Below are positions 2,771 to 58,640 of a stretch of 64,000 bases of DNA, one piece after another. A program made the position numbers and the translations under genes. Origin of the DNA: Mercurialis annua (lineage: Eukaryota > Streptophyta > Magnoliopsida > Malpighiales > Euphorbiaceae); contig NC_065575.1 of assembly GCF_937616625.2 (NCBI RefSeq), forward strand, positions 23,050,001 through 23,114,000, written 5' to 3'. The notes below the pieces were generated by a model, which was given only the letters and a program-made list of their open reading frames with translations, searched no databases and was not told where the DNA came from. The number at the start of each line of letters is the position of its first letter. Position 1 is the first letter of the stretch.

Positions 2771-2940
2771 ATGAATTCTATTTTTTTTTTATTTTTGAAT
2801 TAAATATATAATTGGTTAAACCAATAAACCACACCCAAACCAAACAACTCGAACCAAGCCACTAATATCGAGATTACTTCAAAACGACCGGGAAAAATGT
2901 CGGAATTTAAATGTAAAAAAAATGTAAAATTTTACGGGAT

Positions 2941-5900
2941 AAATCGCTAAAAAAGTGAAATGTTTGGATTTGTTTTGTAACGTTTTAAACGTTTGGATTG
3001 GTTTCGTAACGTTTTAAACTTTTGGTTTAATCGCTAAAAGTGTAAAAAGTGCAGATTTGTTTCATAATGTTTAAAATGTTTGGCTTAAATTGCTAAAAAG
3101 GTGAAATTGTTAAATTAGTTTCGTAACAGTTTTAAACGTTTGGCTTAAATCGCAAAAAAGGTGAAATGTTTGGTTTTGTTTCGTAACGTTTGTAAACGTT
3201 TGGCTTAAATCGCTAAAAATAAGAAACGTTTGGATTTGTTTCGTAACAGTTTTGAAAGTTTTGCTTAATTCGCTAAAATATGTAACGTTTGTCTTTGTTT
3301 CGTAACATTTGGCTTAAATTGCTAAAAAGATGGAATGTTTGGTTTTATTTCATAACGTTTGTAAACGTTTGGCTTAAATCGCTAAGAAGGTGAAACGTTT
3401 GGATTTGTTTCGTAACAGTTTTAAAAGTTTTGCTTAAATCGCTAAAAAGGTACAACGTTTGGCTTTGTTTCGTAACGTTTGTAAACTTTTGGATTAAATC
3501 GCTAAAAAGGTGAAACGTTTGGATTTGTTTTGTAACGTTTTAAATATTTGGATTGGCTTCGTAACGTTTTAAACGTTTGGCTTAAATAGCGAAAAAGGTG
3601 AACTTGGATTTTTTTTGAAACATTTGTAAACGTTTGGCTTGAATCGCTAAAAAGGTGAACCATTTGATTTTGTTACATAACGTTTGTAAACGTTTGGCTT
3701 ATATTACTAAAAAAGGTGAAACGTTTGGATTTGTTTCGTAACATTTTAAACTTTTGGATTGATTTAGTAATGCTTTAAAAGTTTGGATTAAATCGTTAAA
3801 AAGGTGAAGCATTTGGCTTTGTTTCGTAACGTTTGTAAACTTTTGGCTTAAATCGCTAAAAAGGTGAAACATTTAGGTTTTTCGTAAAGTTTTATACGTT
3901 TGAATTAGTTTTGCAATGTTTTAAACGTTTGGCTTAAATCGCTAAAAAGGGGAAACGTTTGGATTTTTTTCGTAGCGTTTGTAAACGTTTGGCTTAAATG
4001 GCCAAAAAGGTGAAAGGTTTAGATTAGTTTCGTAACGTTTGTAAATGTTTGGCTTAAATCGCTAAAATTGTGAAATGTTTGGATTTGTTTCGTAACGTTT
4101 GTAAACGTTTGGCTTAAATTGCTAAAAAGGCGAAACGTTTGGATTTGTTTAGTAACGTTTTAAACGTTTAGATTGGTTCCTAATGTCTTAAATGTTTGGT
4201 TTAAATCGCTTAAAAGGTGAAACGTTTGGATTTGTTTCGTAATGTTTGTAAACATTTGTCTTAAATCACTAAAAAGGTGAAACATTTGATTTTGTTTCGT
4301 AACATTTGTAAACCTTTAGCTTAAAACGATAAAAATGTGAACATTTGGATTTGTTTTGTAACGTTTTTAAACGTTTGGATTGGTTTTGTAACGTTTTAAA
4401 CTTTTGGGTTAAATCGCTAAAAACGTGAAACGTTTGGATTTGTTTCGTAATTTTTGTAAACGTTTGGCTTAGATCGGTAAAAAATGGGAAACGTTAGGAT
4501 TTGTTTCGTAACGTTTGTAAACATTTGGCTTAAATCGCTAAAAAGGAAAAACGTTTGGATTTGTTTTGTAACGTTTGTAAACGTTTGGCTTCAATCGCTA
4601 AAAAGGTGAAACGTTTGGTTTTGTTTCTAACGTTTAAACTTTTGGCTTTAATTGCCTTAAAGGGAAAACGTTTTCTTTTGTTTCATAATGTATGTAAACA
4701 TTTGTCTTAACTCGGTAAAAAGGTGAAATGTTTGGATTTGATTCGTAACGTTTTAAACATTTGGATTTGTTTTGTAACGTTTTAAACGTTTGGATTGGTT
4801 TCATAATGTTTCTAAACGTTTGGCTTAAATCGCTAAAAATGGGAAACGTTTGGATTTATTTCGTAAAGTTTTAAACGTTTGGATTGGTTTCATAACGTTT
4901 TAAACTTCTGGATAAATCGCTAAAAATATGAAACATTTGGGTTTGTTTCGTAACGTTTTAAATGTTTGGCTTAAATTGCTAAAAAGGTGAAATGTTTGGA
5001 TTAGTTTCGTAACGTTTGTAAATGTTGGCTTTAATTGCTAAAAAAGGTGAAATGTTTGGCTTTGTTTCGTAACGTTTGTAAACCTTTGGCTTAAATTGCT
5101 AAAAAAAGGGGAACGTTTGGTTTTGTTAATTTATAATCGTTTGGCTTAAATAGCTAAAAAGATGAAACATTTGGATTTGTTTTGTAATGTTTTAAACATT
5201 TGGATTGGCTTCGTAACATTTTAAAAGTTTGGCTTAAATCGCTAAAAAGGTGAAACATTTGGATTTGTTTTGTAACATTTGTAAACGTTTGGCTTTAATC
5301 GCTAAAAAGGTGAACATTTGGTTTTGTTTCGTAACGTTTGTAAACGTTTGGCTTAAATCGCTAAACAGGTGAAAAGTTTGGATTTGTTTCGTAACACTTT
5401 AAACGTTTGGATTTATTTCGTAGCGTTTTAAACATTTGGCTTAAATCGCTAAAAAGGTGAAGCGTTTGGATTTGTTTCGTAACGTTTGTAAACTTTTGGC
5501 TTTAACTGCTAAAAAGGTGAAAGATTTGGTTTGTTTCGTAACGTTTGTAAATGTTTGGCTTAAATCGCTAAAAATGGAAAACGTATGGATTTGTTTCGTA
5601 ACGTTTGCAAACGTTTGGCTGAAATCGCTAAAAAGGTTAAATTTTTGGGTTTTTTTCGTAACGTTTAAACGTTTGAATTGGTTTCGTAATGTCTTAAATG
5701 TTTGGCTTAAATCATTGAAAAGGGGAAACATTTGGATTTGTTTCGTAACGTTTGTAAACATTTGTCTTAAATCGCAAAAACGGTGAAACGTTATGTTTTG
5801 TTCCGTAACATTTGTAAACGTTTGGCTTAAATTTATAAAAAAGTGAAACATTTGGATTTTTTGTAATGTTTTAAACGTTTGGATTTGTTTCGTAACTTTT

Positions 5901-7175
5901 GAAACCATTGGCTGAAATCGCTAAAAAGGCGAAACGTTTGGATTTGTTTCGTAACGTTTGTAAACGTTTGGCTTAAATTGTTAAAAAGGTGAAACATTTG
6001 GATTTGTTTCGTAACGTTTAAACGTTTGGCTTAAATCGCCAAAAATGGGAAACGTTTGGATTTATTTCGTAACGTTTGTAAACTTTTGCCTTCAATCGCT
6101 AAAAAGCTGAAACGTTTGGTTTTGTTTCGTAAAGTTTGCAAATGTTTGGCTTCAATCACTAAATAGGTGAAACGTTTGGATTTGTTTCTTAACGTTTTAA
6201 ACATTTGGATTGATTTCGTACCGTTTTAAACGTTTTGCTTAAATCGCTAAAAAGGTGAAACATTTGGATTTGTTTCGCAACGTTTTAAATGTTTGTCTTG
6301 AATCGCTAAAACGGTGAAACGTTTGGATTTGTTTCTTAACGTTTTAAACGTTTGGATTGGTTTAATAACGTTTTAAACTTTTGGCTTAAATTGCTAAAAA
6401 TATGAAATGTTTGGATTTGATTCGTAACGTTTATAAACGTTTTGATTAAATCGCTAAAAAGGTGAAACGTTAGGATTTGTTTCGTAACGTTTGTAAACGT
6501 TTGGCTTCAATCTCTAAAAAGGTGAACCATTTGGATTTGTTTCATAATGTTTGTAAACGTTTGGCTTAAATTGCTAAAAATGTGAAATGTTTGGATTTGT
6601 TTTGTAACATTTAGATTTATTTTGTAACGTTTTAAATGTTTTGCTTAAATCGCTAAAAATTTTAAACGTTTGGATTTGTTTCGTAGCGTTTTAAATGTTT
6701 GGATTTGTATTTTTTTTAACTTTTTAAACTTTTAGATTGGTTTTGTAACGTTTTAAATGTTTGGCTTAAATCGCTAAAAATATGAAACGTTTGGAGTTGT
6801 TTCGTAGCGTTTGTAAACATTTGGCTTCAATCGCTAAAAATGTGAAATGTTTGAATTTGTTCTGTAACGTTTGTAAACGTTTGGCTTAAATCGCTAAAAA
6901 GGTGAAACGTTTGGATTTGTTACGTAACGTTTGTAAACGTTTGGCTTAAATCCTTTAAAAGGCGAAACGTTTGGTTTTGTTTCGTAACGTTTGTAAACGT
7001 TTGGCTTAAATTGCTAAAAGGTGAAACATTTGGATTTGTTTCGTAACGTTTTTAACGTTTGGATTGGTTACGTAACTGTTTTAAACGTTTAGCCTAAATC
7101 CCTAAAAAGGGGAAACGTTTGGATTTTTTCGTAACATTTGTAAACGTTTTGCTTAAATTGCAAAAAGGTGAAACT
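2941..7175 (+). repeat. 60-bp satellite array, forward
   Basis: This is a tandem array of 60-bp monomers containing GGTGAAACGTTTGG, then TTTCGTAACGTTTG, then GGCTTAAATCGCTAAAAA. A 90-bp variant inserts one more 30-bp unit containing TTTTAAACGTTTGGATTGG. Monomers diverge by point changes, very often CG to TG or CA within AACGTT. The frames at 5441-5908 (minus) and 5457-5786 (plus) are by-products of a period divisible by three. No gene is seen. Confidence 0.97.
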
Positions 7176-7655
7176 TTTCACCTTTTTAGCGATTTAAGCC
7201 CAACGTTTTTTTGCGATTTAAGCCAAATGTTTAAAACTTTATGAAACAAATCCAAATGTTTCACCTTTTTAGCGATTTAAGCCAAATGTTTACAAATGTT
7301 ACGAAACAAATCTAAACGTTACGAAACCAATCCAAACGTTTAAAACGTTGCGGAACAAATCCAAACATTTTCCCGTTTTAGCTATTTAAGCCAAACATTT
7401 AAAATGTTACAAAACAAATCCAAATGTTTCACCATTTTGCCAAATGTTACGAAACTAAACCAAACGTTTCACCTTTTTAGCGATTTAAGCCAAACGTTCA
7501 CAAACGTTACGAAACCAATTCAAATGTTTAAAATGTTACAAAACCAGTCTAAACGTTTAAAACAAATCCAAACGTTTCACCTTTTTAGCGATTTAAGCCA
7601 AAAGTTTAAAACGTTATGAAACAAACTAAACACTTTACCTTTTTAGCAATTTAAG
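7176..7655 (-). repeat. Inverted satellite module 1
   Basis: Monomers switch to the opposite strand here. The left junction is a near-perfect palindrome, GGTGAAACTTTTCACC. Monomers return to forward at about 7656. The module contains irregular pieces, such as a truncated 'TTTTTTGCGATTTAAGCC' unit, that recur in the later modules, so the modules are copies and not independent flips. Confidence 0.85.
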
Positions 7656-9864
7656 CCAAACGTTTGGATTTGTTTCGCAATGTTTATTTACGTTTGGCTT
7701 ATATCGATAAAAAGATGAAACGTTTGGATTTGTTTTGTAACGTTTGTAAACGTTTGGCTTAAATCGCTAAAAAGGTGAAACGTTTGACTTTGTTTGGTAA
7801 GGTTTGTAAACGTTTGGCTTAAATCGCTAAAAAGGTGAAACGTTTGGATTTTTTTCGTAACGTTTGTAAACGTTTGGCTTAAATCGCTAAAAACGGGAAA
7901 CATTTGGATTGGTTTGTAAACGTTTGGCTTAAATCGCTAAAAATGTTAAACGTTTGGATTTGTTTCGTAACATTTTAAATGTTTGGATTGGTTTCGTAAG
8001 GTTTGTAAACGTTTCACCTTTTTAGCGATTTAAGCCAAACATTTAAATGTTTGGCTTAAATCGCTAACATTGGGAAACCTTAGGATTTGTTTCGTAACAT
8101 TTTAAACGTTTGGTTTATATTGCTAAAAACGTTTTAAATGTTTGGATTAAATCGCTAAAAAGGTGAAACGTTTGGATTTGTTTCGTAACGTTTTAAAAGT
8201 TTGGATTGGTTTTGTAACGTTTTAAACCTTTGACTTAAATCGCTAAAAAGGTTAAACGTTTGGATTTCTTTCGTAATGTTTGTAAACGTTTTGGCTTATA
8301 TAGTTAAAAATGTGAAACGTTTAGATTTGTTTCGTAACTTTTGTAAATGTTTGGCTTAAATCGCTAAATATGTAAAACATTTGGATTTGTTTCGTAACGT
8401 TTGTAAACATTTGGCTTAAATCACTAAAACGGTGAAACGTTTGGATTGGTTTCGTATCGTTTTAAACGTTTAGCTTAAATCGCTAAAAAGGGGAAACGTT
8501 TGGTTTTGTTTTGTAACGATTGGCTTAAATTGCTAAAAAAGTGAAATGTTTGGATTTTTTTAGTAACGTTTTAAACATTTGAATTAGTTTCGCAATGTTT
8601 GTAAACGTTTGGCTTAAATTGCAAAAAAGGGGAAACGTTTGGTTTTGTTTCGTGACGTTTGTAAACATTTGGCTTAAATTGCTTAATAGGTGAAACGTTT
8701 CGATTTGTTTCGTAACGTTATAAATGTTTGAATTTGTTTCGTAACGTTTGTAAAAGTTTGGATTTTTTTCATAACGTTTTAAACGTTTGGATTGGTTTCG
8801 TAACATTTGTAAATATTTGGCTAAATCACTTAAAATGTGTAACGTTTGGATTTGTTTCGTAACGTTTGTTAACTTTTGGGTTGGTTTCGTAATGTTTTAA
8901 ATGTTTGGCTTAAATCGCTAAAAAATGTGAAACGTTTCGATCTATTTCGTAGCATTTGTAAACGTTTCACTTAAATCGCAAAAAAGGTGAAACGTTTGGA
9001 ATTGTTTTGTAAAGATTTTGGTTTCGTAACGTTTGTAAACGTTTTGCTTAAATCTCTAAAAAAGGGAAACGTTTGGTTTACTTTCGTAACATTTGTAAAC
9101 TTTTGGCTTAAATCGCTAAAAAGGTGAAACATTTGGATTTGTTTCGTAACGTTTGTAAACGTTTGGCTTTAATAGCTAAAAATGTGAAACATTTGGATTT
9201 GTTTCGTAAAGTTTGTAATCATTTGGCTTAAATCGTTAAAAAGGCGAAATGTTTGGATTTGTTTCGTAATGTTTGTAAATGTTTGGCTTAAATAGCTAAA
9301 AAGGTGAAACATATGGATTTGTTTCGTAACGTTTGTAAATGTTTGGCTTAAATCGCTAAAAATATGAAACGTTTGGATTTGTTTCTTAACGTTTTAAACG
9401 TTTGGATTGGTTTTGTAACGTTTGTAAAAGTTTGGCTAAATTGCTAAAAAGGTGAAACGTTTGGAGTTGTTTCGTAACGTTTTAAACGTTTGGATTAGTT
9501 TCGTAACATTTGTAAACGTTTGGCTTATATCGCTAAAAAGGTGAAACGTTTGGATATGTTTCGTATCGTTTTCAATGTTTGGATTTGTTTCGTAACGTTT
9601 GTAAATGTTTGGCTTAAATCGCTAAAAAGGTGAACCGTTTGGATTTGTTTCGTAACGTTTGTAACTGTTTGGCATAAATCGCTAAAAAGGTGAAACGTTT
9701 GGATTTGTTTCGTAAAGTTTGTAAACATTTGGCTTCAATCGTTAAAAAGGTGAATTGTTTGGATTGGTTTCGCAACGTTATAAACGTTTGGATTGGTTTT
9801 ATAACGTTTTAAATGTTTGGCTTACATTTCTAAAAAGGTGAAACGTTTGGTTTTGCTTCATACA
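7656..9864 (+). repeat. 60-bp satellite array, forward
   Basis: This continues the forward array up to the E2 insertion. A micro-inversion of one monomer at about 8012-8042 makes a long stem (AAACGTTTCACC ... AAACATTTAAATGTTTGG). The stretch from about 8540 onward matches the satellite on both sides of E6 (32840-33163 plus 41701-42580), which marks a higher-order duplication. Confidence 0.95.
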
Positions 9865-11721
9865 TGTCACGACCCAATTTCAAGAATCGTGATCGGCGCA
9901 AGGGTATGGGTATGGTCGTACCAAAACCCGTAGCAAGCCTTGCAGAAAACAAATAAACATTTAAACCTGTAGAAAACTGCTCGAGGGCAACCGAGACTCC
10001 AACCTAAGTCTAGCAATTAATATTACAATTCTAATATAAATAACTTGAACACCTGAAATGCTCAACAACATGCCTTATATATAATAATAAAATATCCTAG
10101 AGTAAACATGCCAATAATAAAGAATCGATCAAATTGACAATTCTAAAGTGTAATAACAAATGTAATATATAAACTAGTTCTGCTGCGGTCTAAGAGTTCA
10201 AAAACGGTAACTAGTTTAAATAATATAAAAACCTCTGAGGAATCAAAAGAATCGGAGTGGATCGGCTTTCAAATCATAAACCTGAAAAATTTGGAAAAAC
10301 AACGGGGTTAGATATACTGAGGTGAGTTCGCAATACTATTTACATTTATTAAGTTTAAAACTCTTAAATAAAAACATTTTATACTAATATGGTATGATTA
10401 TGGAAAATAGTATTGAAATGATCCCAGCGTAAGTATGACATAGCATAGTGATAAACCCATAGTGGACGGAAACAAATCCTCGTCATATATACCAGCGTAA
10501 GCAAGACATTAGTCTGCAGATTCCCAGAGTACTTACCGGTGCACACAGTCTCGATACAAGCCTATCGAGCAGCTCGTTTCAATCCAGATCCATAATCCGT
10601 AAAAATAGTTCAAAAGCATTTATGATATTAAAATATGATGCGGTACTTGATAAAGCAGTAAATAGCACTACAAGTTCACTACTTGCTTATCCACGTGATC
10701 TTGGCAAACAACTAACCATGGTTCGACTCCTGAGCGCGGGTAGTCGAAGAGTCTAAAATAATAAATAAGTTAATATCCGAACAACCCCTAACTCTAAGAT
10801 TACTAGACACCACATAGGACTAGCACAATTAATAAGTCAGATAAAATCACAGAGAAACACAATTCTCAAATAAATTATAATGCCGTAATAATTCAAGACT
10901 ACTGAGTTCGCACTTAAATCCAATCCGAAAATATTATTAAAATAAATGATAAATAAATAATTCCATTTCTCAAATATTGGGTTAGCCGAATTTCTTAAAA
11001 CTATCAAGCTATAGCCACATGTCGGGCGACCCAAGTCTAACCCGACCCAACCAAATAAAACCAGAATTATAAACCACAGTTTATAATTTAGTATTTAATA
11101 AAATATTAATTAATATCAAAGTAGAACTCAATAGCTTAAAGCCCAAGTAATTATGATTATTGGCAAAATATCTCAAATAATTATATAGCAAAATAAAGCT
11201 AAAATATAACTTTAATCCCAAAGGCATTCTAAACCAAAAATCTTAATTATCGATTAAATAATAATTAATAATAATAATTAATTTAAATTTATATATACTC
11301 AAATATTATTTTTAGGTCTTAAAAATAATATAATTAATTTGACAAACTTTCAAATTAAATAAAATCCCCAATTCTTATTTAATATAGTCAATATATAAAA
11401 TCACATATAAACTATGATAAAATTAATATTAATTTAAATTTAAAATATTAATGCCCAAAGTAGTTTCAAATTATAAATAATATTATTATTTAAATCGCCA
11501 ATTAATAAGTTGAAACCAATTTTGCAAATTGAAATCAAAAATCAATTAAAACAGTTAAAAGATAAGTTTAGGAATCAATAAATTTAAGACACAAAAACTC
11601 AATGACCAAAATTGACCATTACCCAAAAACAATTCAAAATGGCCAATCATCCCTTGCCATGTCATCATCTTCCTTAATATACAAAACAAGTTAACAACCC
11701 AACATGTACAGAGGAAAAACG
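9865..11721 (-). mobile_element. E2 truncated LTR, subfamily A
   Basis: The element begins with the U5 end TGTCACGACCC and shares subfamily A landmarks with E1: the CTCGAGGGCAACCGAGACT block, CTGCGGTCTAAGAG and an ACGGGGT...ATACTGAG block. It then stops near ACATGTACAGAGG and passes into satellite at about 11722 without the expected U3 end. Roughly 0.8-1 kb of U3, including any promoter, is missing. No target duplication is seen. It is a degraded copy. Confidence 0.8.
10550..10569 (-). other. Conserved LTR hairpin 1, E2
   Basis: CTCGATA-CAAGCC-TATCGAG makes a seven-pair stem with a six-base loop, placed between ACCGGTGCACACAGT and GCAGCTCG. Four of the seven stem pairs differ from E1, all by paired change. 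Confidence 0.75.
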
Positions 11722-15260: not shown

Positions 15261-15279
15261 CCTATTGACACCCAATAGG
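15261..15279 (-). other. Conserved LTR hairpin 1, E3
   Basis: CCTATTG-ACACC-CAATAGG is a seven-pair stem with a five-base loop. It is preceded by GGTGATCACACAG and followed by TAGCTAGTTTC. Confidence 0.75.
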
Positions 15280-24535: not shown

Positions 24536-24554
24536 CCTATTGTCGCCCAATATG
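24536..24554 (-). other. Conserved LTR hairpin 1, E4 (one mismatch)
   Basis: CCTATTG-TCGCC-CAATATG. One stem base (G to T) breaks the next-to-last outer pair seen in E3, E5 and E6. The flanking GTGATCACACAG and GTAGCACGTTCC are kept. Confidence 0.7.
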
Positions 24555-29072: not shown

Positions 29073-29458
29073 TGTCACGACCGGATTTCTCGAGCCGCGA
29101 CCGGCGCTAAGGAATGGGAATTATAGTTCCGAATCCCGTAGAAAGCCTGAGATTCACTAAAACTTTTTCGCAATTATGTTATAACACGGAAGAATTTAAT
29201 TACGAAAACATTACTAGTCATTTTATAAACACTGATTACACAAATCCAACATCGTTGAAATATTTGTTTTATACACAACAGCAGTCATAAATATTTTCCA
29301 AAACTAAAATATTGTCCTAGGTCATGACTGGTCACACAATGTAATACTGCAGCGATCACGGAAGTCGGACTGTACATGGCAAGACAGAGTCCCGGCAAAA
29401 CGATAGACTTCTAGTCACTCCAAGTCTAGGTACCTGAAATGTTTAAAAACCACGGGGT

Positions 29459-29470
29459 CAGCTTAAGCTG
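29459..29470 (-). other. Conserved LTR hairpin 2, E5
   Basis: CAGCTTAAGCTG is a perfect 12-base palindrome set in the conserved frame GGGGT...AGTGAG. E3 and E6 have different stem bases at this place. Confidence 0.65.
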
Positions 29471-29702
29471 AGTGAGATATACCTTACTAACGGTATTATC
29501 ACAAAATAGCATCGCAAGTGAAAATCATTTATTCAAGCAAATATAATATTATCATATTATAAACAAAGATTTGATCCGATAGAAACCTTAGTCTTAAACT
29601 CTTAACCTTTCATAACATGTATCGTATTCATATCAAATCATTTTGATCCGAGTGGTACGATCCCGAGATAGTTCGACCGAGTTACCGCTACCACGTGGCA
29701 TA

Positions 29703-29867
29703 GTCCCGAGATAGTTCAACCGAGTTACTCATGCCACTGCTTAATCCCAAGGTGTGAGTCCCGAGATAGTTCAACCGAGTTACTCATGCCACTGCTTAAT
29801 CCCAAGGTGTGAGTCCCGAGATAGTTCAACCGAGTTACTCATTAGATACGGGTTCCGAGATAGTTCG
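29703..29867. repeat. 55-bp tandem repeat in E5 LTR
   Basis: Units start at 29703, 29758 and 29813 with GTCCCGAGATAGTTCAACCG. The first two full units appear identical and the third is partial. Diverged single copies flank the array at about 29657 and 29851. The identity of units means recent duplication. Confidence 0.85.
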
Positions 29868-30001
29868 ACCGAGTTACCTCGTATCTACAAAATTTTAATC
29901 CTCCTTTCCGATACCCAAACATAATTAGCGTATATTGAGCTCATGTCAAACAATTCTAAGTATAGACATCTATACTCTTACAAACACCAGTGATCACACG
30001 G

Positions 30002-30020
30002 CCTATTGACGCACAATAGG
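30002..30020 (-). other. Conserved LTR hairpin 1, E5
   Basis: CCTATTG-ACGCA-CAATAGG, a seven-pair stem with a five-base loop, between GTGATCACACG and TAGCTCGTTTC. Confidence 0.75.
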
Positions 30021-31768
30021 TAGCTCGTTTCTTCGGATCACACATCATTTTCAAGCATAGAACAAATAGCAACAAAACGATATACAAAATTTCATACATA
30101 GAACAAAAAACAACAAAACACTACACAATTCGATCCAGCACCAAATATGGAATTCATTCTCGAATATATAATAAACCAATACACAATTGAATTGTCAAAC
30201 ATAAATTATCAATGCATATATATACATATCTATATATAAATATATGTATATATACTTATATAATAAGTCATATTCCGTGTGTCTCATGGTAGAATAACCA
30301 TTTAGTTTATACAATTGCAAATCACAACAATTATTATATAATGCGAAGTACTTTTTTATACTTATAAATAAAATATTTAATAATGTAATTATAGCGTAAT
30401 AATACGCGAGAGAAAAGTATACTAACTACTTGCTATCCACACGCTGCAATAACAGCATAGCGATGTCGTGTTCTATACGTTCCGGTTCCCGTTGGTAGTC
30501 GCCTCTCTAGGCCTACGCAAAGCCGATAATAGCTCGAATTAATGAAAATCTAGCAATAATAAATTTATCCAAAACTAGATTTCTAGCCAACTTCGGCTAT
30601 CGAAATCGTTTACTTAAAACAATCTGACCCCTAAACAAATTACATTCTTAAAGTTTAGAATGTCGTCTACAACTTTTACTGAGGTCTCGGACTAAGATTA
30701 GCACTCGAAGGTGTCGGAAACTAGCCCATAAATTATTTCCTTGGGGCTGTTTTAAAACTGCAGGGCTGACTGCACAACAAAATGTTCTTCTCTAAATGAA
30801 CATCTTAGAGGCAGAATTAGAAAAACCTTAAACTTAGAAAATTATAGAAAAAATCATAAAGTTTCTTTACCAACAAATTGAGCTCAATTTTGAGTTACAC
30901 AACTCAAGATATGACCCTCGCACTAAGGCTGTTTTGCACAATAATTTTGTGCAAAACGTCAAACTAGTTTGCGTCGAGACTAAAACCTTAGTCGATATCA
31001 TGATTTTATATCAACACAATCCAGACCCCCATACACACCAATAGACACTTTAAATCCATGATTAAAATATTTTCAAACTCATTTGAACATGGTTTTCATA
31101 CCTAGGCCAAATACTATCATTATTTTCCATCCAAGGTTTTATTCAACATACTCAGTCAAATTCAACTCCAATTCAGCCCTAATGACTCTTAATCAGAGCA
31201 TGTAATTATCATTTGAACTCTTATACACCTAACATTTATCATGGTCAAATACTTTAGTCAATTTCCTATCCAATATTTCATTCATAACAACACCAAATTT
31301 CTAAGCTATCAAACATCATCAACTCATGAAATTGCCAACTCCTAAACCATAAAACTTATCCAATTTATCCATCAACAATTAATAAATTTCCAGAAAGTAA
31401 TCCTTACTTTTATTGATAATAAAATCCGAATGGTTTTAGCTCCAAGAATCACCATTAAAATTCACCATGTAAGCTCACAATTTCACTACAATGATCAAAC
31501 ATTCATATCACCCTTATAATCATCAAAACCGAAACTAATAACTATGAAACTCTAACTATAAAATGAGATTCTTACCTCAAATTGAATCCATAATCCAGTA
31601 GAGGATCCTTTCCTCGTTCCGTGGCCGCAAGAATCACTCGATTCGGATCAAAAACGAAGAAGTTATGGTAATTTGAAAATTTATTAATGTTCTTCAATGG
31701 AGGATGGGGAAAAACGAATTTGGCTAGCTGAAATGAGGGTTTTGCTGATGTTAAATCATAAGGAGGTG

Positions 31769-31777
31769 ATATATATA
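31769..31777 (-). promoter_or_regulatory. Possible TATA box of E5 LTR
   Basis: ATATATATA lies about 600 bp from the U3 end and about 125 bp downstream, in element sense, of the AT inverted repeat. The spacing matches E3. Confidence 0.45.
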
Positions 31778-31902
31778 ATATTGGAAAAATGTCTCCTTTG
31801 ATCCTTGAAGTTGCCACCTCCTTACACTTAAATTCCTAAGCTTTTCTTTTGCTCAATTTAGCCCAAAAATCACTTAATCGTTTAATCTCGACAAAATTTT
31901 GT

Positions 31903-31926
31903 ATTATTTATGTCCAAATAAATAAT
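31903..31926 (-). promoter_or_regulatory. Conserved AT inverted repeat in E5
   Basis: ATTATTTAT-GTCCAA-ATAAATAAT. The stem is the same as in subfamily B. The TATA match is weaker (CATAAATA). Confidence 0.5.
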
Positions 31927-32380
31927 ACTCTTCCGTCAACTTATTATTTAAACTCCGCTAATCGATTTTGTCAAATTTTGGCTAAAACTCTCAATTTTCC
32001 AATTTGAGCGAAAACGACGATTTCCGTCATTTTTCTGTCCATTTTTTCATTTATGAATATTGATATCCAAATTATCAATATTATTTTCTTAATTATTGAT
32101 TCCCGTCAATAATTTATTTATTTAATATTTTTCGGGCAGTAAAATTCCATTTTCTAATTTCTCGGGGACTTAATCTTATTTTTAATTCCAGCTTTACCTG
32201 TGTCCCGTTTAATTATTTTAAGCATTATAAATATTGAAATTCCTTCTTTAAATTTCAATATCGACATATCCTCGTCCTTAATTACTTAATTCCTTCGCTA
32301 ACTCCCTTTTCTAGTCGCTCTGACTACTAATTTAAATTGCGTTGCTCACTTCGGCAACGTCAAACGTACGGGGTATTACA

Positions 32381-32455
32381 CCTAAAAAGGGGAAACGTTT
32401 GGATTTTTTCGTAATGTTTGTAAACGTTTTCTTAAATTGCAAAAAAGGTGAAACT
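32381..32455 (+). repeat. 60-bp satellite array, forward, right flank of E5
   Basis: About one forward monomer, equivalent to 22273-22355 in the module 4 context. Confidence 0.9.
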
Positions 32456-32830
32456 TTTCACCTTTTTAGCGATTTAAGCCAAACATTTTTTTTCGATTTA
32501 AGCCGAATGTTTAAAACTTTACGAAACAAATCCAAATGTTTCACCTTTTTAGCGATTTAAGCCAAATGTTTACAAATGTTACGAAACAAATCCAAACGTT
32601 ACGAAACCAATCCAAACGTTTAAAACGTTGCGGAACAAATCCAAACGTTTCCCCGTTTTAGCTATTTAAGCCAAACATTTAAAACGTTACAAAACAAATC
32701 CAAACAAACAAATTCAAATGTTTCACCTTTTTGCCAAACGTTACGAAACTAAACCAAACGTTTCACCTTTTTAGCGATTTAAGCCAAACGTTCACAAACG
32801 TTACGAAACCAATTCAAACGTTTAAATTGC
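32456..32830 (-). repeat. Inverted satellite module 6
   Basis: The left junction GGTGAAACTTTTCACC and the internal order are the same as modules 1 and 4. The right end is a deviant unit (GTTTAAATTGCGATTTAGCC). Confidence 0.85.
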
Positions 32831-33163
32831 GATTTAGCCAAATGTTTGTATTTTTTTAGTAACGTTTTAAAAATTTGAATTGGTTTCGTAACGTTTGTAA
32901 ACGTTTGGCTTAAATTGCTAAAAAGGGGTAAGTTTGGTTTTGTTTCATGACGTTTGTAAACATTTGGCTGAAATTGCTTAAAAGGTGAAACGTTTGGATT
33001 TGTTTCGTAACGTTATAAATGTTTGAATTTGTTTCGTAAAGTTTGTAAAAGTTTGGATTTGTTTCATAACGTTTTAAACGTTTGGATTGGTTTCATAACG
33101 TTTGTAAACATTTGGCTAAATCACTTAAAATGTGTAACGTTTGGATTTGTTTCGTAACGTTTG
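32831..33163 (+). repeat. 60-bp satellite array, forward, left flank of E6
   Basis: Forward monomers matching 8545-8867. They end in GTTTG (33159-33163), one copy of the E6 target duplication. Confidence 0.92.
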
Positions 33164-33720
33164 TGTCACGACCCAATTTATTGAGCCGAGACCGGCGCTA
33201 GGGAACGGGAGTGGTAGCTCCGGAACCCGTAGCAAGCCTAAAACCACTATGAATTTTTCGCGAATTAAATATATTATATAAAATATTTTCAGAAAACCCT
33301 TTTAAACTTTATTATTATAAATACTAAAACATCTTTACTACTTTCTGAAAATCATCGCGAATTATTATTATAGACTAGGGCCTTACCGAGCGACACCTCA
33401 TGTCCAGCTCTGCCCTGTCTCTAATCATAATCGTAACCAATTCCACTTTATGGCAATTGGTTAAAGAAATCAAACGGTTAAAATACGATCTTCATTAATA
33501 AATAGTTATATACGTATACTTTTATATCAAATCAGAGTTGCCCATTTAAATATACCGTTTGAATTTAAACCTGACATTACATATAGACATCTACCGACTA
33601 CTGCAACTCTACGAGGAAAACATCCTTTGACATACTCTTTCACTATCATAGACTTCCGGAAGAAGGAAAGGAAGTCCGTCCTTTAAATCGCTTTGACCTG
33701 AAAGAAAGACTGTGAGGGGT

Positions 33721-33740
33721 CAGTATATGGGGATATACTG
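33721..33740 (-). other. Conserved LTR hairpin 2, E6 3' LTR
   Basis: CAGTATAT-GGGG-ATATACTG, an eight-pair stem with a GGGG loop (CCCC on the element strand), followed by AGTGAG. The only LTR difference I found lies in its first base. Confidence 0.7.
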
Positions 33741-34062
33741 AGTGAGTTTATACATTTACTAATAAGTATCCATATAAAACATAAAGCGTAAAACAATGCA
33801 ATAACGTTCAAACCTCGTGCAGCCAAGTACAGGATCCGAATGAAACCTTAATCCTCAAACATACTAATAATCAATCAATCAACCCAATCATAAATATCAA
33901 TTGCGAGTCCAACTCGCTGGTGGCCCAGCCACTAGATACGGGGACTTCCAGGCTACACCGTAGCCGAGTTCACTCTGCGTATCGAAATCATAACCCAATC
34001 GTAAATTTCATACTCATCATCAGCTCCCAGCTGAGTTATATCAAAACTGGTGATCACACAGT

Positions 34063-34081
34063 CCTATTGTCGCCCAATAGG
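34063..34081 (-). other. Conserved LTR hairpin 1, E6 3' LTR
   Basis: CCTATTG-TCGCC-CAATAGG, between GTGATCACACAGT and TAGCACGTTCC. Confidence 0.75.
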
Positions 34082-34594
34082 TAGCACGTTCCATCGGATC
34101 AATACTGGTTTTAAATCAAGCATATGCAATTCATAAAAAGAATTCGCATCGCAATCATGCAAAACAACATAAAGCAATATAAAATATTTGCTTAAATAAA
34201 TACTTTAAAAGCAAATCGTATAAACTCACAGTGACCGCTTATCCAAAAATACTCTGGTACTCAAAAACGCCTAGCTTCCCGAGCTCCTGGTCCAGCGGCT
34301 CCTTGCCTCGCCGGATCTAAAACTATTTTAAAAAAATAATTGACTCACGTCAGAATCCTATTCTAAGATTGACTCTAGACTCGAGATATTACACGCTAAA
34401 TTCATTAACCGTCGTGCTTTCCACGTATATCCCGATAAACGGTTTTTAACTCGTTTATAGATCGAACATCATTTCTAAATCAATTCCCTTTTTAACCTCG
34501 TTAGGTTAACCATTCACATTAATCGATTAGCTACTATTCGAATACGCGTATTCAATTAATTCAATCGAGGTACGAAGAATAGGGGTGCGAGAAT

Positions 34595-34740
34595 CGGAGG
34601 GTGCACGTTCGTGTAGGGAGGTACACGTTCGTGTACCTTGGTACACGTTCGTGTACCATATGATGGTACACGTTCGTGTACCATATGATGGTACACGTTC
34701 GTGTACCACAGTACACGATCGTGTACAGTCGTGCACGATC
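34595..34740. repeat. GTACACG palindrome array in E6 3' LTR
   Basis: Four to five GGTACACGTTCGTGTACC hairpin units, two of them separated by the identical spacer ATATGAT, ending in GTACACGATCGTGTAC. Fewer units are present than in E4, so copy number changes between LTRs of one subfamily. Confidence 0.85.
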
Positions 34741-35223
34741 CCCCGGAATCGATTTCCGGGGTTTCCGACCTGCTATATACGTAAAAACGCTCCAAACTCA
34801 GCCAAAACGCGTATTCTAAGCTCAAAACGCTATATATCAATCCTATACTCGATAAAACGATAAAATCGTTTCGTGGCCTAAAACTTTGAATCGATATAAC
34901 TTAAAATATATTCGTTTAAACGGTAAAACGTCAAGCTTACCGTGATTACCCGTCGAAATACGATCGTTTGGAGTTATAGAACGTCGGAAATGGGCGAGAA
35001 ACGAAGATCGAGCGACGGAACGGCGTTATCTCCATTTTCCTCTCGCTCTCTCTTTTTGATTCCACTGCTCCCATTTCTGGACAATCCTTCGTCTGGAAGG
35101 TTTCATATCTTTTGGCTAAATGTCACTTTTAGTCCTTAAACTCTTTAACTTAAACCAATTCTCTATTAAACTTTCTATTTTAACTTAACAATTACTTATT
35201 AACTTTAACTCAATTACGTACGT

Positions 35224-35247
35224 ATTATTTATACCTAAATAAATAAT
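35224..35247 (-). promoter_or_regulatory. Conserved AT inverted repeat in E6 3' LTR
   Basis: ATTATTTAT-ACCTAA-ATAAATAAT, containing TATAAATA (35226-35233) on the element strand. E6 lacks the clear TATATA run that E3-E5 have further downstream, so here this is the best TATA candidate. Confidence 0.5.
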
Positions 35248-35644
35248 ACGATTCCAAAATTATTATTTTCTATTAATAATCTTTTAATCGCTATTTTCTG
35301 GCTTAATTGGCTAATTTACACTTTAGCCCTTAAACTTTCAAAATTTACAATTTAGTCCTAAACACATCCGCGTCCAAATTTTAAAAGGTCTCCAATTGAC
35401 CCGAAACGTTTATCACAAATACTATAAAATATTTCGCGGACCTTGGCGAACTAATTCTTATCTCGGGATTTATAATTTATTTTATATTAATTTTCTAACC
35501 CTTTTCCTTTAATCCCAATAATCTGTTCAATAAAAATTACTTTAAATTCCCGATATCATTAAATTAAATCCCTCTTGACTTAATTTATCAAAATTCACGA
35601 CACGTGGCACGACTTAATTATTCTAAAATATTTGGGGTATTACA

Positions 35645-35657
35645 TTCACCCCCCCTT
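35645..35657 (-). other. E6 polypurine tract
   Basis: On the element strand this reads AAGGGGGGGTGAA directly before TGTAATACCCC of the 3' LTR. It is the primer for plus-strand DNA synthesis. Immediately before it, 35663-35680 reads AAATTCGAGGACGAATTT, the usual end of plant Ty3/gypsy polyproteins (KFEDEF when translated). This remnant shows the element derives from a coding Ty3/gypsy ancestor. Confidence 0.9.
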
Positions 35658-39203: not shown

Positions 39204-39215
39204 GCTCTGATACCA
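39204..39215 (-). other. E6 primer-binding site
   Basis: GCTCTGATACCA on the plus strand gives TGGTATCAGAGC on the element strand. This is complementary to 12 bases at the 3' end of plant initiator tRNA-Met. Four bases separate it from the 5' LTR. Confidence 0.92.
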
Positions 39216-40118
39216 CAATTGTCACGACCCAATTTATTGAGCCGAGACCGGCGCTAGGGAACGGGAGTGGTAGCTCCGGAACCCGTAGCAAGCCTAAAAC
39301 CACTATGAATTTTTCGCGAATTAAATATATTATATAAAATATTTTCAGAAAACCCTTTTAAACTTTATTATTATAAATACTAAAACATCTTTACTACTTT
39401 CTGAAAATCATCGCGAATTATTATTATAGACTAGGGCCTTACCGAGCGACACCTCATGTCCAGCTCTGCCCTGTCTCTAATCATAATCGTAACCAATTCC
39501 ACTTTATGGCAATTGGTTAAAGAAATCAAACGGTTAAAATACGATCTTCATTAATAAATAGTTATATACGTATACTTTTATATCAAATCAGAGTTGCCCA
39601 TTTAAATATACCGTTTGAATTTAAACCTGACATTACATATAGACATCTACCGACTACTGCAACTCTACGAGGAAAACATCCTTTGACATACTCTTTCACT
39701 ATCATAGACTTCCGGAAGAAGGAAAGGAAGTCCGTCCTTTAAATCGCTTTGACCTGAAAGAAAGACTGTGAGGGGTTAGTATATGGGGATATACTGAGTG
39801 AGTTTATACATTTACTAATAAGTATCCATATAAAACATAAAGCGTAAAACAATGCAATAACGTTCAAACCTCGTGCAGCCAAGTACAGGATCCGAATGAA
39901 ACCTTAATCCTCAAACATACTAATAATCAATCAATCAACCCAATCATAAATATCAATTGCGAGTCCAACTCGCTGGTGGCCCAGCCACTAGATACGGGGA
40001 CTTCCAGGCTACACCGTAGCCGAGTTCACTCTGCGTATCGAAATCATAACCCAATCGTAAATTTCATACTCATCATCAGCTCCCAGCTGAGTTATATCAA
40101 AACTGGTGATCACACAGT

Positions 40119-40137
40119 CCTATTGTCGCCCAATAGG
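40119..40137 (-). other. Conserved LTR hairpin 1, E6 5' LTR
   Basis: Same sequence as the copy at 34063: CCTATTG-TCGCC-CAATAGG. Confidence 0.75.
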
Positions 40138-40650
40138 TAGCACGTTCCATCGGATCAATACTGGTTTTAAATCAAGCATATGCAATTCATAAAAAGAATT
40201 CGCATCGCAATCATGCAAAACAACATAAAGCAATATAAAATATTTGCTTAAATAAATACTTTAAAAGCAAATCGTATAAACTCACAGTGACCGCTTATCC
40301 AAAAATACTCTGGTACTCAAAAACGCCTAGCTTCCCGAGCTCCTGGTCCAGCGGCTCCTTGCCTCGCCGGATCTAAAACTATTTTAAAAAAATAATTGAC
40401 TCACGTCAGAATCCTATTCTAAGATTGACTCTAGACTCGAGATATTACACGCTAAATTCATTAACCGTCGTGCTTTCCACGTATATCCCGATAAACGGTT
40501 TTTAACTCGTTTATAGATCGAACATCATTTCTAAATCAATTCCCTTTTTAACCTCGTTAGGTTAACCATTCACATTAATCGATTAGCTACTATTCGAATA
40601 CGCGTATTCAATTAATTCAATCGAGGTACGAAGAATAGGGGTGCGAGAAT

Positions 40651-40796
40651 CGGAGGGTGCACGTTCGTGTAGGGAGGTACACGTTCGTGTACCTTGGTAC
40701 ACGTTCGTGTACCATATGATGGTACACGTTCGTGTACCATATGATGGTACACGTTCGTGTACCACAGTACACGATCGTGTACAGTCGTGCACGATC
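40651..40796. repeat. GTACACG palindrome array in E6 5' LTR
   Basis: Same array as at 34595-34740, unchanged. In element sense it lies about 0.9-1.05 kb from the LTR start, inside the presumed RNA leader. Confidence 0.85.
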
Positions 40797-41279
40797 CCCC
40801 GGAATCGATTTCCGGGGTTTCCGACCTGCTATATACGTAAAAACGCTCCAAACTCAGCCAAAACGCGTATTCTAAGCTCAAAACGCTATATATCAATCCT
40901 ATACTCGATAAAACGATAAAATCGTTTCGTGGCCTAAAACTTTGAATCGATATAACTTAAAATATATTCGTTTAAACGGTAAAACGTCAAGCTTACCGTG
41001 ATTACCCGTCGAAATACGATCGTTTGGAGTTATAGAACGTCGGAAATGGGCGAGAAACGAAGATCGAGCGACGGAACGGCGTTATCTCCATTTTCCTCTC
41101 GCTCTCTCTTTTTGATTCCACTGCTCCCATTTCTGGACAATCCTTCGTCTGGAAGGTTTCATATCTTTTGGCTAAATGTCACTTTTAGTCCTTAAACTCT
41201 TTAACTTAAACCAATTCTCTATTAAACTTTCTATTTTAACTTAACAATTACTTATTAACTTTAACTCAATTACGTACGT

Positions 41280-41303
41280 ATTATTTATACCTAAATAAAT
41301 AAT
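41280..41303 (-). promoter_or_regulatory. Conserved AT inverted repeat in E6 5' LTR
   Basis: Same as 35224-35247. The TATAAATA at 41282-41289 is about 411 bp from the LTR start. If it works as a TATA box, transcription would begin near 41250 and run leftward. Confidence 0.5.
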
Positions 41304-41700
41304 ACGATTCCAAAATTATTATTTTCTATTAATAATCTTTTAATCGCTATTTTCTGGCTTAATTGGCTAATTTACACTTTAGCCCTTAAACTTTCAAAAT
41401 TTACAATTTAGTCCTAAACACATCCGCGTCCAAATTTTAAAAGGTCTCCAATTGACCCGAAACGTTTATCACAAATACTATAAAATATTTCGCGGACCTT
41501 GGCGAACTAATTCTTATCTCGGGATTTATAATTTATTTTATATTAATTTTCTAACCCTTTTCCTTTAATCCCAATAATCTGTTCAATAAAAATTACTTTA
41601 AATTCCCGATATCATTAAATTAAATCCCTCTTGACTTAATTTATCAAAATTCACGACACGTGGCACGACTTAATTATTCTAAAATATTTGGGGTATTACA

Positions 41701-54400: not shown

Positions 54401-56018
54401 TCTTTTAGCGATTTAAGCCAAATATTTAAAACGTTACAAAAAAAATCCAAACGTTTCACATTTTTAGCGATTTAAGCCAAACGTTTACAAATATTACGAA
54501 ACATTTTCACTTTTTAGCGATTTAAGCCAAATATTTACAAACGTTACGAAAATAAATCCAAACATTTCACTTTTTTACCGATTTAAGCCAAAAGTTTAAA
54601 CGTTACAAAACCAATCCAAACGTTTAAAACGTTACGAAACAAATCCACACGTTTCGCCTTTTTAACGATTTAAGCCAAACGTTTACAAACGTTACGAAAA
54701 TTCCAAATGTTTCACCTTTTTAGCGATTTAAACCAAACCTTTAAAACGTTACGAAATCAATCCAAACGTTCAAAATGTTACTAAACAAATCTAAACGTTT
54801 CCCATTTTTAGAGATTTAAGCCAAACGTTTACAAACTTTACGAAACAAAACCAAACGTTTTACCTTTTTAGCGATTTAAGCCAAACGTTTACAAACGTTA
54901 CGAAACAAATCCAAATGTTTCCCCTTTTTCGTGATTTAAGCCAAACGAAACAATTCCAAAAGTTTAAACCGTTAGGAAACAAATCCAAATGTTTTAAACC
55001 TTTTTAGCGATTTAAGCCAAACGTTTACAAACGTTACGAAACAAATCCAAATGTTTCATATTTGTAGCGATTTATGCCAGACGTTTACAAGCGTTACGAA
55101 ACAAATCCAAACGTTTCGCCTTTTTATGATTTAAGCCAAACGAAACAAATTCAAACATTTAAAATATTTGGAAATAAATTGAATGCTTTAAACCTTTTTA
55201 GTGATTTAAGCCAAACATTTACAAATATTACAAAACTAATCCAAACGTATTAAACGTTACAAAATCAAGCCAAACGTTTATCATTGGCTTAAATCCCTAT
55301 AAACGTGAAACATTTGGATTTGTTTCGTAAAGTTTGTAAACGTTTGGTTTTGTTTCGTAACATTTCCCCTTATTAGAGATTTAACCCAAACGTTTACAAA
55401 ACATTTACAAACGTTTCTCCTTTTTAGCGATTTAAGCCAAACGTTTAAAACTTTACGAAATAAATACACATGTGTCAAACGTTACGAAAAAAATCCAAAC
55501 GTTTAAAAAATGTTATGAAACCAATCCAAATGTTTAAAACATTACGAAACAAATTCAAACGTTTCGCATTTTTAGCGATTTAAGCCAAACGTTTACAAAC
55601 GTTACAAAACAAATCCAAATGTTTCCCCTTTTTAGCAATTTAAGCCAAACGTTTACAAACATTACGAAACAAAACCAAACGTTTCACCTTTGTTGCTATT
55701 TAAGCCAAACATTTACAAACGTTACGAAACAAATCCAAACGTTTCCCCCTTTTTAGCAATTTATGCCGAATGTAATATCCCGTATTTTTTAAAAACTATT
55801 TTTTAAAAAAAATTAATTTTAATTTTTGCATTCCGTCAAGGTTTAAGTAATTTATCATTATTATTATTAATATATATTTTATTAAATTTTATTTAAGTCG
55901 TTCGTTGATTCGGCCGTGATTCGATTCATATTTGGTTTGTATTATTAAATCTTAAAAGAAAAAAAAATAAATTCCTATGACATTGTTCCAAGCAAATTAG
56001 CCATGCAAATGAGCCATA

Positions 56019-56073
56019 CATATGTTATCACGTTGGCCATATGTTATCACGTTGGCCATATGTTATCACGTTG
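56019..56073 (+). repeat. 19-bp tandem repeat in E7 U3
   Basis: Three copies of CATATGTTATCACGTTGGC, the last incomplete, end about 60 bp upstream of the TATA box. The position suggests a duplicated promoter element. E1 carries its palindrome array at about the same distance. Confidence 0.85.
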
Positions 56074-56133
56074 TTCTTTTCATGCTTCAATATAAGAAGC
56101 AGTGTCCCTTATTTTTCTTTCATTTGTTTTCCT

Positions 56134-56142
56134 CTATATAAA
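56134..56142 (+). promoter_or_regulatory. TATA box of E7 LTR
   Basis: CTATATAAACC is a textbook plant TATA box. It starts about 364 bp from the LTR start and is followed by a pyrimidine-rich leader. It would define the end of U3. Confidence 0.7.
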
Positions 56143-57862
56143 CCTATCAGTTGCAGTTCACGTTTTTTTTGCTTCTTAACCTAAAATTTTCCTATCAATT
56201 AATATGAAACCTCAGCCGCCACACTTTCAAAACATTTTGAAACTTCATCAATCACCATTCATTGCAATCATTCCAATCCGGTAAGTATCACGCTTTGTTT
56301 CTTTTATTGCTTCGATATCGTCAAAATACGGTTCTTGATTTCTAGCTTATTATTTTAGATATAATTTGATTGTTGTTCGACGATTCACATCGACTCAACG
56401 ATATCTTCGAATCTCCCGTATAAGAATCGATAAAGGTACATAAATATTACTCAGTTCATCGTCGTTTCGGTTCGCGGTGTTCATGCATTGTTATCTGCAT
56501 ATTCTTGAATTGTTACTGCCAATATTTGTTTTGGATTTTAACTATCAATTTTACTTGTTTAATCATGTTGTGGATTGGTAGTTAATCATTGGTTTAAATT
56601 TGTGGTCGTTTCGAACCGCCGTTTGATGGTTGTTATTGCCGCCGTGAGTTTCCATGTTACAGTAACATGTTCTTAAATCTTTTTCTTGATAATTAGGTTA
56701 TGTTTTAAGGTTAAGTGTTGCGATTAAACAATAAGAATTATGTTATAGATTTAGGTATTAAGTTTATGATTGAAGTTTGATTATGGTTGTTGATTAAGGC
56801 TTATGGTTCTGCTAGTGATTTGATTAATTCATTCAATTATAGGGTTGGCGGGAATAAAGGAAGAAGGTGACTAATTGGCCAAATTGGTCACTAAAGTTGT
56901 TTAGTTTAACTCAATTAATTATAGTTATTTGTTTTTAATTTATGATTTTCGTTTCGATTTTAAATAGACAACTAGAAAACGATAATTATTTTATTATCTA
57001 AATTAATATAATTACTCGAGTAATTATATTTAATTTTGATTTATATGTTATTTTAGCTAATTTTCGATTTAGCCCCTAAAAGTTTCTAAAAAACTTATTC
57101 AAGTTAAGTTTTATCTATTGGTTTTATCTCGAGGATAACTTTTGGATTTATTTGAATTACAAATTAGTAAATTGAGAACGAGTAATTAATTTGATTTCGA
57201 ATATCAAATTGGCTAAATTACAATTTAGTCCTTAAACTTTTATAAACTTAAAATGGTTAAATTTTAGTTGTAACTTGGGTTACTTGGATTTGAAGTTATT
57301 GAACTCTATTTTAAAAATAGGATAATTATTTTATCAAGTATTTTAATTTATAAACTCGGGTTTATAAATTTAATAAACTTTTGAACTGGGTTAGACTTTG
57401 GTCGCCCAGCAAGTGGGAAGAAGTTTGGTAGTTTTTAACAACTCTGCTGACTCACTGATATGGATTTTAACTTGGGTTAATTTAAGTTATTTGTACGAAT
57501 CATTCTAAATATGTTTATATGATTTGTACTCTATAACTTTGGTTATATTTGGAATGTATTTAATATAAGTGTTTATTAAATGTGGCTTGGTATTGTGCTG
57601 TACTAGTTCTATGTGGTGTCTAGTACTCTCTAGAGTTAGGGTCTGATTTTAATTATGATTTTAATATTTTGTTTAGACCTGTCGACTGTTCGTACTTCAG
57701 AGGCGAACCAGAGTTAAATTACTTGTCAATTTCACGTGGAATAGCAAGCAGTGAGTTTATATCTCTATTTACCTCTTTATTAAGAAAATATTATATTTTG
57801 TATATGTATAAACAGCTTTCGAACTGTTTTTCGGCATTGTGGATTTGTTTTGGAACGTGCTA

Positions 57863-57881
57863 CTCGATGGGCATCATCGGG
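57863..57881 (+). other. Conserved LTR hairpin 1, E7
   Basis: CTCGATG-GGCAT-CATCGGG on the element strand: seven pairs, one of them a U-G wobble in RNA, with a five-base loop. It is preceded by GGAACGTGCTA and followed by ACTGCGTGCGCACCGG, as in the other LTRs. Confidence 0.75.
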
Positions 57882-57924
57882 ACTGCGTGCGCACCGGTAA
57901 TGATTATGGTATTGAGGTAGGTTT

Positions 57925-58025
57925 GAGATACGTCTCACCTTAGTGAGGGCACCGGTGGAAGATACGTCTCCTGGGCTCACTATTTATTAAGTGTTAGTCG
58001 GGGATCGGTTATTGAGATACGTCTC
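57925..58025 (+). repeat. GAGATACGTCTC repeats in E7
   Basis: Three copies of a GAGA-TACG-TCTC hairpin (57925-57936, about 57959-57970 with one change, 58014-58025). They occupy the position of the CCCGAG repeats in E1 and E5. Confidence 0.75.
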
Positions 58026-58640
58026 ACCGACACGACAATAGATTTAGAATTGTGGTTTAGGGTTTCATTGATAATCCATAATGAAAATATTTTATTAAAC
58101 GTTTTAAAGGTTTTTAACTTAATAAATGTAAATGGTTATATAAACTATACTCAATAAATCTGACCCCGTTGTTTTCCCAAATTTTCCAAATTTATGATTT
58201 GAGCATTGGTCGATCTCGGTTTCTTCATTCTCGGAGGTTCTTTATTTTATTTTTAGAATAAAAGAGTCGAACTGTTTTAAACTCTTAGACCGCAGTAGTA
58301 GTATTAGATTTTTATGTTTTAGTCTTTTACTTATATTTTTAGACTGTTGTTTGTTGGTAATTACTTTATTGCTTTTGGCATGATTACAGTATTTATGGTA
58401 TTTATATTATATTTCCATACTGTTGGAGTTATAATTTGAGATAAGTATACTTTGAATATATGTTGCTTATTGTACTGCTAGACTAGGCTGAAGTCTCGGT
58501 TGCCCCCGAGCATGTGGTTTTCTGCAGGTACATTGTTTTAAATGATATAAGTTGGTTATCCGCAAGGCTAGCTACGAGTTTTGGTACAACCATACCCATA
58601 CCCTAGCGCCGGTCGCGATTCATGAAAATGGGTCGTGACA

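Follow-up and report, generated by a model that had tools for sequence, protein, structure and literature searches.

Is the short hairpin that recurs in the LTRs of this stretch of Mercurialis annua DNA (64,000 nucleotides, hereafter the window) maintained as folded RNA, and if so, what could it be for? The original prediction had placed such a hairpin at eight positions, and all eight were confirmed. The hairpin under study, here called H1, lies at 34063-34081 in the 3′ LTR of element E6 and recurs in the 5′ LTR of the same element at 40119-40137. Further copies were found in E1 (819-837), E2 (10550-10569), E3 (15261-15279), E4 (24536-24554) and E5 (30002-30020), all of these and the E6 pair on the minus strand, and in E7 (57863-57881) on the plus strand. 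Seven Watson-Crick pairs are formed in six of the eight (E1, E2, E3, E5 and both E6 LTRs), E4 has one mismatch, and E7 contains one T·G pair on the sense strand; the loop is 6 nt long in E2 and reads TGCGT in E5. The conserved flanks of the hairpin were as described. The stems had been given for the plus strand, and their letters hold; the RNA strand was corrected on the basis of LTR ends, primer binding site (PBS) and polypurine tract, according to which the sense strand is minus for E1 to E6 and plus for E7.

The carriers of H1 are true LTR insertions, set in a satellite array with units of ~30/60 bp. E6 is complete in outline: its 3′ and 5′ LTRs in the sense direction (33164-35644 and 39220-41700, minus strand) were delimited by their termini and by pairing with each other, show 99.96% identity over 2400 aligned bases and are flanked on both sides by the 5-bp target duplication GTTTG/GTTTG. 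A PBS-like site is located at 39204-39215 and a polypurine tract at 35649-35657, so that, among the features checked for a Ty3/gypsy element, paired LTRs, 5-bp duplication, PBS and polypurine tract are present in E6. The PBS presumably fits the plant initiator-Met tRNA, and the lineage, judged from the LTR ends, is putatively that of the Tekay-type chromoviruses. No tRNA genes were found. E3 and E4 are solo LTRs with the duplications GATTT and AAGCC, respectively. E7 is likewise a solo LTR (55771-58640), with flanks (CCGAA/GTTTA) that do not match, unlike those of E3 and E4. The satellite, with half-units of ~29/30 bp at 59/60-bp spacing, occupies the gaps between the elements (2900-9850, 42400-64000 and others) and flips its orientation along the window. 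Tandem near-perfect palindromes of the GGTACACGTTCGTGTACC type were seen upstream within the E6 LTRs (34611-34740 and 40667-40796); they are perhaps a promoter or a protein-binding array.

Across the 451-Mb genome, a 34-nt piece spanning H1 gave 383 matches (190 + 193; reversed control 0/0), and a pattern leaving stem pairs 2-7 free gave 4236 (2198 + 2038; control 0/0). Among the first 100 places listed for the latter, the stems CCTAATG/CATTAGG, CCTATTG/CAATAGG, CTCGATG/CATCGGG, CTCGATG/CATCGAG, CTTAATG/CATTAAG and others were present. Bacterial and archaeal contigs gave no matches. A single match in a viral contig (L095) was rejected as a chance match in DNA of 61% GC.

Selection on the pairing of H1 was analysed in 70 distinct copies, which remained after 24 of 94 regex matches had been dropped as not being H1 and which were aligned and placed on a tree. 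As a null, columns were simulated on this tree, each with its own number of changes preserved. In this sample, for part of which the search pattern dictated stem pair 1, 98.0% of the H1 cells were paired, compared with 73.9 ± 6.4% in the simulations, none of which (0/3000) reached the observed value. Further pair types numbered 11 against 6.8 under the same tree-preserving null (1/3000), and shifting the partner by 1-4 columns lowered pairing to 18-53%. The claim that two-sided stem changes keep the pairing thus stands beyond the null, both for cells and for pair types. On the sense strand, 15 G·U wobbles were counted as against one A·C, which points to RNA. The covariation check that the original prediction had named as its refutation spoke against it: in a blind ranking of the R-scape kind (G-test covariation with average-product correction, 70 copies, 204 columns), the hairpin was not picked out. 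Three of the seven pairs had uncorrected p values of 0.0035, 0.015 and 0.025, the other four ranged from 0.24 to 1, and the best H1 pair ranked 35 of 20706. The pairs do not reach the top because lineage-level changes are few and subfamily-specific columns co-vary everywhere; for H1, the directional pairing test is sharper than the blind ranking. Selection on folded RNA is therefore backed by pairing beyond the null and by the G·U wobbles, but not by the blind covariation ranking.

H1 belongs to a larger folded RNA domain on the sense strand, which is conserved within the LTRs and several hundred bases long. The hairpin as first found is real, but of this domain, ~400-735 nt in length, it represents no more than the smallest part. 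In E6, the domain extends over 532 nt from GTGAGT to CAG|G (33698-34229, minus strand), a putative intron for which splicing is predicted; the other LTR carries identical letters at +6056 (39754-40285, minus strand), save for the branch-like site described below. From 80 extracts 53 distinct domains were obtained, with seven further places lacking H1 excluded; the copies came from the window and from C1, a contig of which mostly the first 17 Mb were sampled, so that sampling within this one genome is biased. The domain is closed by a long helix, P1, whose 5′ strand opens with GTGAGT (34198-34229, copy 40254-40285) and whose 3′ strand lies at 33742-33766 (copy 39798-39822), both on the minus strand; the strands paired in E6 are GTGAGTTTATAC and GTATAAACTCAC, separated by over 400 nt. 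Among the 17 copies left after pruning, the highest-scoring local helix covered 27-49 aligned columns, including mismatches and bulges, and its mean score was 41.1 versus 32.3 when arms were swapped between copies (0/5000 reached the observed value); over 30 sets of shuffled arms the maximum was 30.1. Three of the 17 scores (L088, L057 and E5) were 24-28 and did not exceed the highest shuffled mean; two of these copies had a helix that did not involve GTGAGT. H1 is followed by a self-complementary octamer, in E6 GTGATCAC at 34050-34057 (copy 40106-40113, minus strand). It is self-complementary in 65 of the 70 copies and takes four forms: GTGATCAC (44), GTGCGCAC (19), GTGCAC (1) and ATGATCAT (1). 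Among eight folded copies the energy was lower for the sense strand in seven, whereas dinucleotide-shuffled z-scores were lower for the antisense strand in six, and the strand of the domain thus rests on the wobbles and not on energies.

Another hairpin, the module AACTCGG-N(8-13)-CTCGGGA, is present either as a single unit or as an array, with three units in E1 (653-767, namely 653-678, 704-729 and 741-767) and five in E5 (29661-29875), all on the minus strand. Its core is near-constant, and its outer stem varies yet remains complementary. The outer-stem score was 7.93 compared with a maximum of 7.25 over 10000 swaps in 38 instances (pruned from 57 with a good core among 75 raw ones), one of which (L049) is really an H1 and several of which, of the E1 type, score 2-4; the score was 7.93 with G·U and 6.83 with A·C. 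The exact core pattern was found at 3869 places genome-wide (control 0), and the 100 places listed often formed clusters on the same strand, mostly at 39-61 nt spacing. E6-like copies have one related module, in E6 closed by GATACG/CGTATC (33935-33983, copy 39991-40039), together with hairpins such as GTGGC-TGG-GCCAC (33920-33932, copy 39976-39988) and GCGAGT-TGG-ACTCGC (33903-33917, copy 39959-39973), again on the minus strand. Their loops are mostly GGT or TGG, the exceptions being AGT (L059), TAG (E3) and TGA (L058). In nine such copies, pruned from 13, 206 of 210 cells were paired, double changes affected 3 of 24 pairs, and G·U wobbles outnumbered A·C by 10 to 2. One further locus (L094:900-1560) contains four well-formed modules and the end hairpin PE, with no H1 recognised by the pattern, which indicates that modules and H1 can come apart.

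PE has the form TCAG..CTGA. In E6 it occupies 33720-33741 (minus strand), with a branch-point-like CTGAC at 33719-33723, and in E5 it reads TCAGC..GCTGA, then CC (29455-29471, minus strand); in the E4 copy it was not found. Its inner stem differs by subfamily (TATTT/AAATA, TATAT/ATATA or AAATAT/ATATTT). The PE pattern, which fixes TCAG/CTGAC, was present at 5209 places genome-wide (control 0). Of 25 forms tested, the 15 long ones, comprising three stem types, had 5.07 inner pairs compared with 0.61 after shuffling, and the ten short ones had 0-1 extra pairs.

The borders of the domain are splice-site-like, with GTGAGT at the start and, after the domain, CTGAC, pyrimidines and YAG|G. In the 53 distinct copies the donor-like site was GTGAGT in 44, ATGAGT in three and another sequence in two, and was not found in range in four, a tally in which L065 is entered with a later GTGAAT, although the P1 analysis shows GTGAGT. 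The exon side of GTGAGT is mostly not the usual AG. In 52 of the 53 copies YAG|G follows 25-31 nt past the point where the branch-like site starts, and the letters between the two are 73% pyrimidines as against 50% in the loci; the constancy of CTGAC gives no independent evidence, since it was fixed by the extraction pattern. Where both ends were found, they enclose 398-735 nt. The branch-like site also holds the sole mismatch between the E6 LTRs over their 2400 aligned bases (33719-33723 versus 39775-39779), reading CTGAC in one LTR and CTAAC in the other in the sense direction. GT donor, branch-like site, pyrimidine tract and AG acceptor, the sequence features checked for a spliceosomal intron, are all present, and the domain resembles a structured intron within the LTR. 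Its letters have plant-intron syntax, and if it is an intron, P1 would hold both of its ends together.

The carriers of the domain are a group of plant Ty3/gypsy retrotransposons that includes coding and non-coding members. The coding features checked for such elements, gag, protease, RT, RNase H and integrase, are present in one copy (L013). Two others (L011 and L014) have no ORF of at least 130 aa, and in the window outside the satellite, E6 included, there is no ORF of at least 150 aa. The internal region of E6 has ~100 bp near the PBS in common with L013, and their LTRs match over the terminal 100 bp and over a block of ~1.1 kb, 84-87% identical, which contains the domain; short repeated matches lie beside this block. 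Non-coding E6 and coding L013 thus have mainly their cis-acting ends and the domain block in common. The domain, its pairing and strand, its splice-like borders and its occurrence in coding as well as non-coding elements are all computational results.

Conserved hairpins and a self-complementary site, the sequence features checked for a retroviral-type packaging or dimer signal, are present in the sense RNA, and among the functions that the original prediction had listed (packaging, dimerisation, translation or 3′-end formation), packaging or dimerisation is the one that we would favour. We tentatively propose, at somewhat less than an even chance, that the domain is a packaging and dimerisation signal, placed within an LTR leader intron whose splicing would be regulated, and kept only by unspliced RNA. 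P1 closes the domain, with H1, the octamer and the hairpin row inside and PE after it. Unspliced genomic RNA would retain the domain and be packaged, the octamer would start RNA dimers and the hairpin row would bind Gag, while spliced RNA, lacking the domain, would serve for translation only. For this scheme we infer a transcription start upstream of the domain, splicing, dimerisation and Gag binding. In its favour stand the pairing results for H1, the module outer stems, P1 and PE, the excess of G·U over A·C wobbles, the octamer, the splice-like borders and the regions common to E6 and L013. It is weakened by the sampling of a single genome, the blind covariation ranking, the three low P1 scores, the antisense z-scores, the loop exceptions, and the results for TATA-like strings and spliced copies given below.

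A fairly unlikely alternative is that the domain acts as a packaging, translation or stability element within unspliced RNA, its splice-like borders having arisen by chance or as by-products of pairing. It could then belong to the 5′ leader, acting by internal entry or shunt, or, with a downstream start, to the RNA 3′ end. TATA-like strings in 13 copies indeed gave no consistent site that would place the transcription start upstream of the domain, and the constancy of CTGAC is partly due to search selection. Furthermore, no spliced, reintegrated genomic copies were found in the two subfamilies searched, for which a positive control was not obtained; this outcome would follow from the exclusion of spliced RNA from packaging, and just as well from a lack of splicing. 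What argues against this alternative is the placing of YAG|G at 25-31 nt together with the pyrimidine tract in 52 of 53 copies, with letters that differ by subfamily.

We regard it as unlikely that the domain is a structured intron only, in which the fold would hide or join splice sites and adjust the splicing or export of the RNA, with no part in packaging. P1 starting with GTGAGT and PE ending in the branch-like CTGAC are in agreement with this possibility, and so are five E7-like copies in which the P1 partner no longer fits, four of them retaining GTGAGT and one having ATGAGT (copies with ACTCAT opposite GTGAGT still pair by G·U and are outside this count). It leaves the constant module cores, the array copies and the octamer unexplained, however, and the search of two subfamilies for spliced genomic copies, which found none, lends it no support. 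Quite improbable, finally, are inverted repeats acting at the DNA level, whether palindromes bound by proteins or by-products of replication, in that part of the LTR which holds the promoter: LTRs do carry promoters, the octamer is a DNA palindrome, tandem perfect palindromes lie near 34611-34740 in the same LTR, independent changes in H1 are few and z-scores are lower for the antisense strand in six of eight copies, but one-strand wobbles that are G·U rather than A·C, a helix whose arms lie ~450 nt from each other and a constant core surrounded by many different stems would not be expected of DNA sites.

The proposed packaging and dimerisation signal within an LTR intron has partial counterparts in known systems. 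In the 5′ leader of retroviruses, the packaging and dimer-initiation region lies behind the splice donor. The LTR domain resembles it in its row of hairpins, its self-complementary site and its location past a splice-donor-like sequence, such that only unspliced RNA would retain it; it differs in lying inside the LTR, in its long closing helix, in its arrays with constant cores and variable outer stems and in being known from sequence alone. No Rfam family matched the hairpin or the domain: the whole window gave no matches at the gathering score, and with E up to 1 none fell inside the E5 or E6 domain. Three weak matches in 29400-34350 at E up to 1 lay outside the domains, all below the cut-offs, and were rejected.

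Within a limited library, no title or abstract start described such an LTR domain, and short sequence pieces used as queries returned unrelated titles only; the available parts of PMC3735527, PMC4974528, PMC3601003 and PMC7730604 describe no folded intron in an LTR. PMC3735527 reports for BARE of barley distinct RNA pools for translation and packaging, with part of the transcripts spliced. As a plant LTR element that divides its RNA between these two fates, BARE is similar to what we propose, but it is Copia-type and has its 104-nt intron within gag and not within an LTR (PMC3735527). Palindromes have been proposed to start genomic RNA dimers in Ty1 (PMC4974528), and the octamer may be likened to these sites, although Ty1 is a yeast element and the palindromes are unrelated in sequence and position. 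PMC3601003 ascribes conservation in LTR R regions to stem-loops, a tie between LTR conservation and stem-loops that is also seen here; plant Ty3/gypsy LTRs could not be modelled there, and the present case thus lies outside that study. Spliced retrotransposon RNAs are reported from sunflower (PMC7730604).

Little is known of how plant LTR retrotransposons pick out their own RNA to be packaged, or of how this machinery is borrowed by non-coding elements. In a wider form of our proposal, which we consider possible if rather doubtful, a folded intron inside each LTR would be the packaging mark, splicing would strip it from mRNA, only unspliced RNA with the dimerising octamer and the tandem hairpins that bind Gag would be replicated, and non-coding elements would persist by virtue of the domain. 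If true, this would mean that non-coding elements such as E6 keep the domain and have little else in common with coding ones. A strand-specific RNA domain that is common to coding and non-coding elements, and whose motifs occur thousands of times in this one genome, is an object that can be probed, and it could also help to find LTRs too diverged for ordinary alignment.
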